Of a stretch of 64,000 nt of DNA, positions 31,532 to 37,445 are shown piece after piece. The number at the start of each line of letters is the position of its first letter. The first letter of the stretch is position 1. Under the pieces are notes generated by a model. It had not been told where the DNA came from, did no database searches, and worked only from the letters and a program-made list of their open reading frames with translations. The position numbers and the translations under genes were made by a program. The stretch is from Streptomyces rubrogriseus (GTDB lineage: Bacteria > Actinomycetota > Actinomycetes > Streptomycetales > Streptomycetaceae): positions 5,394,001 to 5,458,000 of the forward strand of contig NZ_CP116256.1 of the NCBI RefSeq assembly GCF_027947575.1, in the 5' to 3' direction.

Positions 31532-32563
31532 TCAGTGCTCGTGTTCGTGCGCGGCCGCCTCGCCGGGCGGCGCCTCGCTCTCGCCGCTCTTCGCGGTCGC
31601 CCCGCCGTGCTCGTGCGGTTCGTAACCGGGGATCGTGCCGTCCGGCTTCTTCACCAGGAACAGCCCCACCATCCCCATGTCGGAGTGGCTCTGCACGTGG
31701 CAGTGGTACATCCACGCCCCGGCGCCCACTCCCTCCCCCGCGACGATCTGGAAGCCGAAGGAGTCCGCCGGGCCGGTGATCTTGTTGTCGATGACCCGGG
31801 ACGGGTCGTCGGGGCCGGTGAGGATGCCGGTGCGGTTGTCCGCCCAGCGGTGACCGTGCATGTGGAAGGTGTGGTAGTACTCGCCGTGCGTGATCATGAC
31901 GATCTCCACGCGGTCGCCCACGGTGGCCTCGAAGTCGGGGCCGGTGTGCGGCTTGCGGTTGTTGATGGTCATGTCGTTGAAGACGATCGTGTGCGTGGCG
32001 TCCGGCAGCACGTCCCCCTTGCGGCGCACGATCACCGGGCCGTACAGGCCGTTGCGGATGCCTCCGGTGCCGTGTTCGGTGCCGACGACGTGGTCGTGGT
32101 AGTGCCAGTAGCCCGCACTGCCCGGCCGCCAGGTGCCGTCGTCGCGGCGGCCCGGTTTGTGGGTGCGCCAGGTGTAGGTGCGGGTGCCGCCGGGCTCGAC
32201 GTCGCTCTTGTTCATCGCGGTGCCGTCGCTGGAGATCTCGTAGTCCAGGCCGTGCACGTGCAGGCTGGCGCGCACGTCCATGGTGTTGGTGAACTCGATG
32301 TGCACCGTGTCGCCCTCGTTGAGTTCGATGAGCGGGCCGGGGACGGTCGCCTTGCCCTTCTCGAAGCCGTAGCCCATCTGACCGTCCGCCAGCTTCTCGG
32401 CGTACATCCTGAGGTGTCTCACCTCGCCCCCGGCCGGTGCCGTCCTCGCGGTGACCTCCTTGGCCGCGGGGGCGGCTCCCGCGACCTCCGGAGCGATGGA
32501 CAACGATGTCGCGGCGGCCGCGCCGCCCAGCAGTACCCGTCGGTTGAAGCCTCGCCTGTCCAT
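31532..32563 (-). CDS. small two-domain laccase (SLAC type), Tat-exported
   Basis: 343 aa. Very close to S. coelicolor SLAC (SCO6712) as I recall it. Two cupredoxin domains form a trimeric multicopper oxidase that oxidises phenols and reduces O2 to water. Copper-ligand strings: [25 protein letters not shown] and the C-terminal [12 protein letters not shown]. The N-terminus has a Tat signal, NRRVLLGG (residues 7-14), cleaved near residue 31; the tail is His/Glu-rich (HEHEH) and may bind copper. ATG 32563 has GGGGAG upstream. It diverges from the ThuA/sugar-dehydrogenase operon over 200 bp. Confidence 0.95.
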
Positions 32564-32700
32564 GCCGAACTCCCCACGCCGATACGGAATGTGCGCAGAC
32601 CCAGGACCTGATTGGCTGTGATGAGCCTGTGGGACCGTACCGGTTGCCGCCGCGTTTATCCACACTCAGGACAAAGTTCGTTCGATTGCGGTCATACCTA

Positions 32701-35241: not shown

Positions 35242-37445
35242 TACGCCAACGAAGAATGTGGGCCGCGCTGCTGGCCGGCCTGCTGATGGTGCTCGGACTG
35301 CAGGCGACGTCCGCCTCCGGGCAGCCCGCGAAGGCACCCGCCGCGGCCGCCGCCGACCAGGTGCTCACCTGGACGGCCGGTGACGACATCACCAAGTACA
35401 CGTCGGCGCCCGAGACGGCGGTGGCCGGTCCGGCCACGATCGTCTTCGAGAACAGTGAGGCCACCGGCAACACCACCGGCATGCCGCACACGCTGACGTT
35501 CATGACCAGCGATCCCGCGTACAACCAGGACGTGCAGCTGAACATCCTGGCCAACCCGAACGACGCGGAGGGCGGCAAGCACACCGCCGAGGTCACCCTC
35601 ACCCCCGGCAAGTACATGTACCACTGCACGATCCCGGGCCACGGCCAGATGACCGGCGTGCTCGTGGTCACCGAGGGTGGCGGCGGCGAGGACACCACGG
35701 CGCCCGCGACCTCGGCCGAGGTGGGCGGCACGCAGAACGCCGACGGCGCGTACGTCGGTTCCGCGACCGTGAGCATCGCCGCCACCGACGAGGGCGGCTC
35801 GGGCGTGGAGCGGATCGAGTACGCGATCGGTGCCGACGGCGCCTGGCAGCCGTACACCACGCCGGTCGTCGTCGACCAGGTCGGTGAACACGTGGTGCGT
35901 TACCGGGCGTTCGACAAGGCGGGCAACGCCGCCGAGGAGAAGAGCGTCACGTTCGCCGTGGCCGCGCCGGACACCGACGACACGACCGCGCCGGAGACCT
36001 CGGCGACGGTCAGCGGGGAGAAGAACGCGGACGGTGCCTACATCGACATGGCGACGGTGACCGTCACCGCCTCCGACACCGGTTCCGGCGTCAACACCAT
36101 CGAGTACGCGGTCGGCGACGGCGCCTGGACGGCGTACACCGGGCCGGTCATGGTGCACGAGGTCGGCGAGCACACCGTGCGCTACCGGGCCACCGACAAG
36201 GCGGGCAACGTCGCCGCGGAGAAGAGCGTCGCCTTCACCGTGGCCGCCGCTCCCCCGCAGGACACCACCCCGCCGGTGACCGGCGCGACCGTGGACGGCA
36301 CCAAGAACTCCGACGGCGCCTACGTCGGCAGCGCGAAGGTGACCGTGAACGCCGCGGACGAGGGCGGTTCCGGCGTCGCCGGTGTGGAGTACTCGCTGGA
36401 CGCCGGGCCCTACCTGGCGTACACCGACCCGGTGGTCGTGGACCGGGTGGGCCGGCACACCGTGGCGTACCGGGCCAGCGACAAGGCGGGCAACACCTCC
36501 GAGCCGCTGACCGTGAGCTTCTCGGTGGTGGCGGGCCAGGTGCCGCCGCCGCCCTGCCCGGAGTACGACGAGCGCCAGACGGTGATCGTCGGCACGGTCG
36601 ACTCGGGGGTGCCGAACCGGGTGACCAACAACCGGTGCCGGATCAACGAGATGATCGAGGACGAGAAGGAGTGGACGTCCCAGGCGCTGTTCCTCAAGCA
36701 CGTCCGTGAGGTCATGGACGGCCTCCTGGACGAGGGCGTCGTCGACAAGCGGGAGTACCGGGCGATCAACAAGGCCGCCAAGCAGTCGAAGATCGGGCTG
36801 CCCGGCCAGACCGAGGGCTACCGCACGATCCTCGACGGCACCCAGGACTCCTTCGCCAAGTGGGAGCAGGTGGGCGGCGGTTCGTTCGGGCTGAACCCGG
36901 ACGGGTCGATCACGTCCAGCACCGGCACGCCCGGCATGGGCATGCTGTGGTTCCCCGAGCGCAAGTACGGCGACTTCTCGCTGAAGCTCCAGTGGCGGGA
37001 CGACGCGGCGGGTACGGCGAACACCAACGGCGGCGTCTTCGTGCGCTTCCCGCAGGTGCACGACCACCCGGAGGAGTCCCGGCCGGAGTGGGTCGCCATC
37101 AAGTACGGGCACGAGGTGCAGGTGTTCGACAGCCCGACCGGCGACATGTACAAGACGGGTTCCCTCTACGGCTTCGACCGGGTCGGCCTGGCCGGCGCGG
37201 GCGTGACGGAGAAGGGCACCTGGAACGACTACGAGATCCGGGTGGTGGACCAGCACTACTCGGTCTACCGCAACGGCGTGCTGATCAACGAGTTCGACAA
37301 CTTCGGCGGCCAGACCTTCTACCCCGAGCGCTCGGACGACCCGGGCACCGACGGGCGGCGGTTCGCCTCCGGCTACATCGGACTCCAGGTGCACAGCACC
37401 TCGGACGTGGTCTCGTACCGCGACGTCCGGATCAAGGACCTCTAG
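35238..37445 (+). CDS. secreted cupredoxin, Ig-like repeats and 3-keto-glycoside hydrolase-like (DUF1080) protein
   Basis: 735 aa from GTG 35238. A signal peptide lies at residues 1-32. Residues 40-150 form a type-1 copper domain with ligands His (MPHTLTF) and Cys-His-Met (YHCTIPGHGQM). Three 92-96-residue repeats follow (152-247, 248-341, 342-433), each ending VRYRA-x-DKAGN or similar, an Ig-like/OmpL47-type fold. A linker with CPEY and EMIEDEKEW leads to a C-terminal jelly-roll of the DUF1080 family (about 525-735: ILDGTQDSFAKWEQVGGG, DFSLKLQWRDDA, NTNGGVFVRFP). The last family includes 3-keto-disaccharide hydrolases. Translationally coupled to the sugar dehydrogenase, it may be both electron acceptor and hydrolase. 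Confidence 0.85.
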   Translation: MIRQRRMWAALLAGLLMVLGLQATSASGQPAKAPAAAAADQVLTWTAGDDITKYTSAPETAVAGPATIVFENSEATGNTTGMPHTLTFMTSDPAYNQDVQLNILANPNDAEGGKHTAEVTLTPGKYMYHCTIPGHGQMTGVLVVTEGGGGEDTTAPATSAEVGGTQNADGAYVGSATVSIAATDEGGSGVERIEYAIGADGAWQPYTTPVVVDQVGEHVVRYRAFDKAGNAAEEKSVTFAVAAPDTDDTTAPETSATVSGEKNADGAYIDMATVTVTASDTGSGVNTIEYAVGDGAWTAYTGPVMVHEVGEHTVRYRATDKAGNVAAEKSVAFTVAAAPPQDTTPPVTGATVDGTKNSDGAYVGSAKVTVNAADEGGSGVAGVEYSLDAGPYLAYTDPVVVDRVGRHTVAYRASDKAGNTSEPLTVSFSVVAGQVPPPPCPEYDERQTVIVGTVDSGVPNRVTNNRCRINEMIEDEKEWTSQALFLKHVREVMDGLLDEGVVDKREYRAINKAAKQSKIGLPGQTEGYRTILDGTQDSFAKWEQVGGGSFGLNPDGSITSSTGTPGMGMLWFPERKYGDFSLKLQWRDDAAGTANTNGGVFVRFPQVHDHPEESRPEWVAIKYGHEVQVFDSPTGDMYKTGSLYGFDRVGLAGAGVTEKGTWNDYEIRVVDQHYSVYRNGVLINEFDNFGGQTFYPERSDDPGTDGRRFASGYIGLQVHSTSDVVSYRDVRIKDL

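Follow-up and report, generated by a model that had tools for sequence, protein, structure and literature searches.

The Streptomyces small laccase SLAC is known as a phenol oxidase and serves as a model enzyme for which many structures have been solved, but the physiological role and natural partner of this type of enzyme are unclear. Here we analysed a SLAC orthologue and its surroundings in a 64,000-nt stretch of the Streptomyces rubrogriseus genome (NZ_CP116256.1, positions 5,394,001 to 5,458,000; the whole stretch is called the window and is numbered from its first letter). The laccase gene stands back to back with a two-gene operon encoding a secreted protein with a ThuA domain and a GSDH-type sugar dehydrogenase propeller (gene 1) and a secreted protein with a cupredoxin domain and a DUF1080 domain (gene 2). 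As judged from genome comparisons, the laccase, the ThuA-GSDH protein, the cupredoxin protein and the DUF1080 domain are one evolutionarily linked unit, and the locus is very probably one functional module. The conserved partners, together with a short candidate operator held in common with a sugar-import operon, suggest a testable natural role for the small laccase and open the question of its partner to simple experiments.

Fungal AA12 pyranose dehydrogenases depend on pyrroloquinoline quinone (PQQ) and have cytochrome b as their partner; pathways of the LacABC and BT2157 type use LacABC or nicotinamide adenine dinucleotide (NAD)-type 3-dehydrogenases; and the catabolism of levoglucosan by levoglucosan dehydrogenase (LGDH) and of C-glycosides by DgpA/DgpC is intracellular and of the NAD type. 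Gene 1 has the propeller fold of AA12, but the canonical PQQ-anchoring motifs are not clearly kept and the predicted partner is a cupredoxin. As in the LacABC/BT2157-type pathways, a secreted DUF1080 domain is found beside an oxidation system, here also with apparently co-regulated import and Gfo/Idh/MocA genes. In PMC9007349, BT2157 is described as a 3-ketotrehalose hydrolase, and the use of lactose by Caulobacter is tied to DUF1080. The window locus differs in that the GSDH propeller, the cupredoxin and the laccase occupy the place of the 3-dehydrogenase. The host import operon resembles the LGDH and DgpA/DgpC systems (PMC8563793) in that a Gfo/Idh/MocA dehydrogenase is encoded beside a sugar-isomerase-like triosephosphate isomerase (TIM) barrel. 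In contrast, those systems have no copper arm, and the host operon dehydrogenase scores below the LGDH family cut-off. Among the literature matches listed, none placed SLAC with sugar-oxidation genes, and the matches listed from the open-licence PubMed Central literature held no description of the combined system, in agreement with the original prediction that a system of these four functions was undescribed. The gene names sought were absent from the main text of PMC11538686. The parts are of known kinds, and the combination and the regulon appear to be new.

The two-domain small laccase (343 amino acids; positions 31532 to 32563, minus strand) was identified by homology search and copper motifs. 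It contains the Pfam domains Cu-oxidase_3/_2 and aligns end to end, over residues 1-343, with S. coelicolor SLAC (SCO6712; PDB ID: 3cg8) at 772.7 bits. The copper motifs of the type-1 and trinuclear sites are present and are those of SLAC (HVHG, HYHDH, HMHGH and HCHVQSH), and the N-terminus, when read by eye, looks like a twin-arginine translocation (Tat) export signal. The start codon is the ATG at 32563, and a GTG at 32665 merely gives the longest open frame. The 3cg8 sequence by itself was found in five PDB entries. In three loci with tandem small laccases (L034, L036 and L131), one copy has a tyrosine in place of the type-1 histidine of HCHxxxH (HCHVQGY or HCHVQSY), and L033 and L046 each have one laccase copy in which neither the HxHGH nor the HCH motif is found; altered copper motifs were found in these 5 of 114 laccase frames.

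Gene 1 (825 amino acids; 32764 to 35241, plus strand) starts with the ATG at 32764. Domain searches and fold matches placed a ThuA domain (PF06283, 203 bits) at about 32932-33600 and a GSDH-type beta-propeller (PF07995, 87 bits, over the cut-off) at about 33660-35200. Gene 2 (735 amino acids; 35238 to 37445, plus strand) starts with a GTG at 35238 and shares the sequence GTGA with the TGA stop of gene 1. Its cupredoxin domain (35352 to 35675, plus strand) was found by alignment and motif pattern, and the Copper-bind score of 22.4 bits (PF00127) is just above the 21.2 cut-off, with all four type-1 ligands present. The domain is followed by three OmpL47-type repeats (NF047446, 262 bits), a linker and a DUF1080/3-keto-disaccharide hydrolase domain (PF06439, 113 bits; 36819 to 37436, plus strand), which was found by Pfam and by fold matches. 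A laccase diverging over 200 bp from a two-gene operon and the domain make-up of both proteins had thus been correctly foreseen. The gap of 200 bp (32564 to 32763) is a divergent promoter region common to the laccase and the operon, and an alignment of gaps revealed conserved blocks in it. One of these regions is a conserved promoter-like pair for the operon, read by eye at 32701-32729 on the plus strand (TTGGCG at 32701-32706, a spacer of 17 bp and TAGCTT at 32724-32729).

A survey of 150 genomes of the genus recovered the laccase in 95 (E ≤ 1e-70), gene 1 in 92 (E = 0) and gene 2 in 93 (E ≤ 1e-60, partial matches allowed); 91 genomes had the complete set. The original prediction had proposed such a survey and had named a laccase that mostly occurs without the operon as the outcome that would speak against it; the operon was present in 91 of the 95 laccase genomes. 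In one genome (G073), the operon was found without a laccase match and the contig ends there, and gene 2 of G119 and G149 is split or lies on a separate contig. In another genome (G048, locus L029), remnants of the laccase and gene 2 lie close together with the middle missing, an apparent loss of the block as by internal deletion. Of 394 genomes sampled across the class, 49 had the laccase (25 of the genus and 24 others), and 48 of these also had the gene-1 subfamily at E < 1e-240 (25/25 and 23/24, respectively). Conversely, the laccase was present in every genome that had the gene-1 subfamily (48 of 48). In the one exception, G165, a cupredoxin gene adjoins two laccases at a contig end, and a third laccase has no such neighbour in the 10 kb fetched. 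Because the genomes are interrelated, Fisher values for the co-occurrence of the locus, and of the regulator described below, are not independent tests.

When named genomes were scanned with a non-Streptomyces GSDH profile, 284 relatives were found, and the 80 best were taken further. A laccase lay within the fetched stretch (up to 7 kb on each side) in 76 of the best 80 loci, and laccase, cupredoxin and DUF1080 were found together in 72, a rate that does not represent a random sample since the scan was seeded with laccase-linked loci and the closest relatives were kept. The four loci without laccase were L093, L104, L106 and L108, and L104 and L108 start at a contig end inside the gene. The loci span six families, namely Streptomycetaceae and, each supported by the look-up of one genus, Jiangellaceae, Pseudonocardiaceae, Micromonosporaceae, Streptosporangiaceae and Promicromonosporaceae. 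In loci that are not of the window type, the DUF1080 domain belongs to the ThuA-GSDH protein, and the cupredoxin protein carries no domain besides its repeats and the cupredoxin itself. Among the best 80, DUF1080 was on the GSDH protein in 79 and on both proteins in 15. The position of the laccase also varies, as it may be divergent, upstream and co-directional, or downstream of the cupredoxin gene. These varied orders and orientations, and the movement of DUF1080 between proteins, weaken an explanation by synteny within a lineage, and a chance neighbourhood is ruled out by the genus, class and wider locus surveys. In contrast, 12 of 12 hand-picked distant ThuA-GSDH paralogue loci had no laccase or cupredoxin match and no type-1 motif in the matched frames. 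Thus, among the loci compared, the blue-copper domain goes with the laccase. The earlier proposal that the four functions form one system is strongly supported by these surveys and is widened to six families and to a common operator.

The candidate operator is a 21-bp dyad, TTTATCCACACTCAGGACAAA (TTTNTCC-N7-GGACAAA), at 32655-32675 in the laccase gap. It was the sole site in the window at up to two mismatches, with 0.15 matches expected. In the host genome (G000; a single chromosome of 8.41 Mb), the dyad occurred at three places with at most one mismatch, compared to one match for a backwards control. At two mismatches there were 35 matches versus 23 for the backwards pattern, and for this reason only tight sites were used. 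The three places are the laccase gap, a site before a secreted GSDH-PKD-CBM6-ThuA-DUF1080 paralogue and a site 150 bp before a gene for a ROK regulator. The laccase gap carried the dyad in 91 of 91 locus genomes, 88 at no more than one mismatch and three (G043, G062 and G113) at two. Of these gaps, 71 were read directly (58 exact, 10 with one mismatch and three with two), and for the remaining 20 a site at up to one mismatch was among the genome-scan matches listed. The backwards pattern was found in 0 of 71 gaps at up to two mismatches and never did better than three. When palindromes with shuffled arms were applied to 107 loci in 60 permutations, they gave a mean of 1.4 and a maximum of 9 hits compared to 25 for the dyad. 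CsoR was also considered as the owner of the dyad and was rejected, as none of the three host places at up to one mismatch was recognised as a copper-homeostasis gene; the locus may have a separate CsoR site.

The dyad was present somewhere in the genome at one mismatch in 110 of 121 genomes. Matches to the host ROK protein (E ≤ 1e-100) were found in 84 of the 121 genomes, in 69 of the 70 with both the laccase and gene 1, and in none of the 11 without any dyad site. The dyad matches listed comprise 95 sites in 34 genomes, with only site-bearing genomes shown. Among them, 20 of 26 ROK genomes have a dyad within 400 bp upstream of the ROK gene, and the 95 sites include 10 that lie 5.5-9 kb beyond ROK, where the host paralogue sits, 21 in laccase gaps (one of them in G073) and 44 elsewhere. 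In loci with the order cupredoxin (minus strand) and laccase (plus strand), a close ROK protein (504-693 bits) is encoded inside the locus in 11 of 14, and a dyad two mismatches from TTTGTCC-N7-GGACAAA lies at the cupredoxin/laccase boundary in 14 of 14. The host protein has a ROK domain (PF00480, 201 bits) and a regulator-type N-terminus, as the NagC model aligned to residues 13-385, with a score of 172 bits against a cut-off of 650. Taken together, the ROK protein likely controls the locus. A ROK protein also adjoins the paralogue in two of the 12 distant loci (532 bits in L145 and 179 bits in L144). Three of the 44 sites found elsewhere precede the matched parts of further GSDH paralogues by about 430-500 bp (G017:C917:3551, G087:C38:2865 and G112:C274:100), and such sites suggest a larger regulon. 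A dyad variant, TTTGCCGGGCCTGTGGACAAA, recurred at G115:C3:723192, G118:C437:26399 and G056:C37:6015.

The ROK gene heads an operon that continues with genes for an ATP-binding cassette (ABC) ATPase, a permease, a sugar-binding protein, a Gfo/Idh/MocA dehydrogenase and a TIM-barrel isomerase-like protein. In Streptomyces, as far as the sites themselves indicate, the dyad is common to the laccase locus, the secreted paralogue and this ROK-sugar ABC-dehydrogenase operon. The Gfo/Idh/MocA protein scored 53 bits against the glycoside 3-dehydrogenase model (cut-off 750), and scans with Pfam and NCBIfam found no 3-dehydrogenase of a characterised type among the locus proteins. According to PMC8563793, a pair of a Gfo/Idh/MocA protein and a sugar-isomerase-like protein handles C-glucosides via 3-oxo forms. 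The AlphaFold model of gene 2 (predicted local distance difference test, pLDDT, 75; predicted template-modelling score 0.33) was usable domain by domain, with low pLDDT in parts of the DUF1080 domain. It matched Ig-like proteins first, through the repeats, and then solved Bacteroides-type proteins. These included the 3-keto-glycoside eliminase/hydratase structures 8rr2 and 9fbe, 8tda and BT2157 (3osd), at 20-22% identity and TMt 0.53-0.57. The 3-keto chemistry of the original prediction thereby gains indirect support, in that the DUF1080 structural matches and the seemingly co-regulated operon are consistent with it.

We propose that Actinomycetes have a 3-keto-sugar regulon under ROK control and that this locus forms its secreted copper-redox arm. 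The ThuA-GSDH protein would act outside the cell and oxidise a glycoside hydroxyl, most likely at C3. The electrons would then pass one at a time to the cupredoxin, at its type-1 copper, and on to the T1 copper of the laccase, whose trinuclear cluster would hand them to O2. The DUF1080 domain would cut the 3-keto glycoside by elimination/hydration, the keto-sugar would be imported and then processed by the co-regulated operon, and the ROK protein would sense a pathway sugar and govern all three promoters. We regard the chances of the whole scheme, including the electron path, as about even. The DUF1080 fold matches and the 374.7-bit match of the operon dehydrogenase to levoglucosan dehydrogenase count in its favour. 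A more novel version is offered tentatively, with odds somewhat below even, namely a so far unrecognised secreted chain of the respiratory type in which a ThuA-propeller enzyme with a cofactor other than PQQ oxidises sugars at C3 and feeds blue copper and then laccase and O2, and which drives oxidative, non-hydrolytic glycan cleavage by DUF1080 under one ROK regulator. If this is true, the natural electron donor of the Streptomyces small laccases would be a cupredoxin and not phenols. If the chain is real, laccases can serve as terminal oxidases for extracellular sugar oxidation, and the breakdown of glycans by soil bacteria would be tied to copper and O2.

Several observations weigh against the copper-redox scheme or parts of it. 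At the level of regulation, G113 has the locus with a weak dyad (two mismatches) and no ROK match at E 1e-100, the ROK match in G119 is just 59% identical, and 15 genomes have ROK but not the full locus. In the import operon, the Gfo/Idh/MocA protein matched the levoglucosan dehydrogenase model NF052479 over nearly its full length at 374.7 bits, below the cut-off of 650. Other points concern the propeller and its cofactor. Canonical soluble glucose dehydrogenase (sGDH) contacts PQQ through His144, Arg228-Asn229, Lys377 and Arg406/Arg408, with the last three positions presumably held by LRG and GRLR motifs. These motifs, which occur in 2ism, 3a9g and the orthologue of 3das in the same genome, were not seen in gene 1 in a comparison made by eye, since the profile alignment with hhalign did not extend over the C-terminal half. 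The AlphaFold model of gene 1 (mean pLDDT 68) is weak in its C-terminal blades, and the models support no residue-level claim about a cofactor. PqqC (TIGR02111), the sole PQQ-synthesis gene sought, was not found over the cut-off in the host. It was found in 33 of the 150 genus genomes, 19 of 91 with the locus and 14 of 59 without, which shows no association. A protein closely related to 3das, a canonical propeller, is also encoded in the host, so the missing PqqC alone cannot decide the cofactor. PQQ may come from outside the host, or the redox cofactor of the propeller may be another one. The PQQ claim of the original prediction is thus weak, as PqqC was also not found in 72 of the 91 locus genomes, and PQQ was not accepted as the settled cofactor.

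The same observations raise the question of whether the propeller is a dehydrogenase at all. It could instead be a sugar-binding or keto-sugar-processing domain, with electrons coming from elsewhere, for example from phenols or a glycoside oxidase, and the unseen LRG and GRLR motifs and the absence of a PqqC match in the host would fit such a role. In contrast, the gene 1 positions aligned to His144, Arg228-Asn229 and Gly247-Pro248 of sGDH are kept and are invariant in alignment A2. Propeller homology is further supported by hhalign at 99.2% over the first half, and the best fold matches of the model were the glucose dehydrogenases 7cgz and 7cdy, followed at lower rank by the AA12 enzymes 6i1q, 6i1t and 6h7t. 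The score against the glucose/sorbosone PQQ dehydrogenase model TIGR03606 was 31.4 bits, below the cut-off of 434.55. On balance, we consider a non-dehydrogenase propeller unlikely.

Two further explanations keep the genes together without the proposed electron path. The laccase might attack lignin phenols while the operon acts on sugars or sugar-lignin bonds, the two being co-regulated with no passage of electrons and the cupredoxin serving another partner. Small laccases show broad phenol activity, and SLAC oxidises phenols in vitro (PMC3918160), so the laccase may have a role with lignin or phenols, which fits this reading and counts against the copper-redox scheme. The same holds for the related ThuA-GSDH paralogues, sugar modules that manage without cupredoxin or laccase, and the three genus genomes in which the laccase stands without the operon (G058, G116 and G146). 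Two of these, G116 and G146, retain the LigD/ligase neighbours of the window, so a loss of the operon is likely there. Parallel attack is nevertheless rather doubtful, as the laccase is rarely found without the operon and the cupredoxin travels with the laccase and is missing in the 12 laccase-free paralogue loci, which mere co-regulation does not predict. Alternatively, the cupredoxin protein could supply the secreted laccase with copper, as a carrier or maturation factor, with the sugar domains serving only to anchor it to glycan surfaces. The OmpL47-type repeats would fit surface display. SCO6710, which is probably gene 2 to judge from a number close to SCO6712 and the product names of gene 2 homologues, is listed in PMC6414726 as a glycosyl hydrolase putatively repressed by CsoR, a copper connection that fits copper loading and is a further point against the copper-redox scheme. 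However, the same paper reports SCO6710 as down (log2 -1) in copper-loaded spores, which relief from CsoR would not predict, and the dyad ties the locus to sugar genes and occurs at only three host places at up to one mismatch. Furthermore, the His-Cys-His-Met ligands were kept in 34 of 34 aligned cupredoxin domains and, by pattern, in 105 of 105 frames (both sets hold duplicate loci, such as L032 and L058 from the same contig), and a full site fits electron transfer better than chaperoning. We consider copper loading very unlikely.

The surroundings of the locus were also inspected. A gene for a LacI-type regulator (30286-31347, minus strand) lies directly downstream of the laccase. It was set aside as the regulator of the locus, although it may still play a part: in a comparison of L011-L015 and L024-L050, it adjoins the laccase in four of the first five loci (L011-L014, not L015) and gave no match in L024-L050. 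Farther away, an Rfam match to the ASdes small RNA (28017-28084, minus strand, 58.8 bits) lies antisense to a fatty-acid desaturase gene and may merely reflect coding conservation. Beyond gene 2, at 37462-39629, are genes for a LigD-like polymerase and an ATP-dependent ligase, which several other loci of the genus have too.

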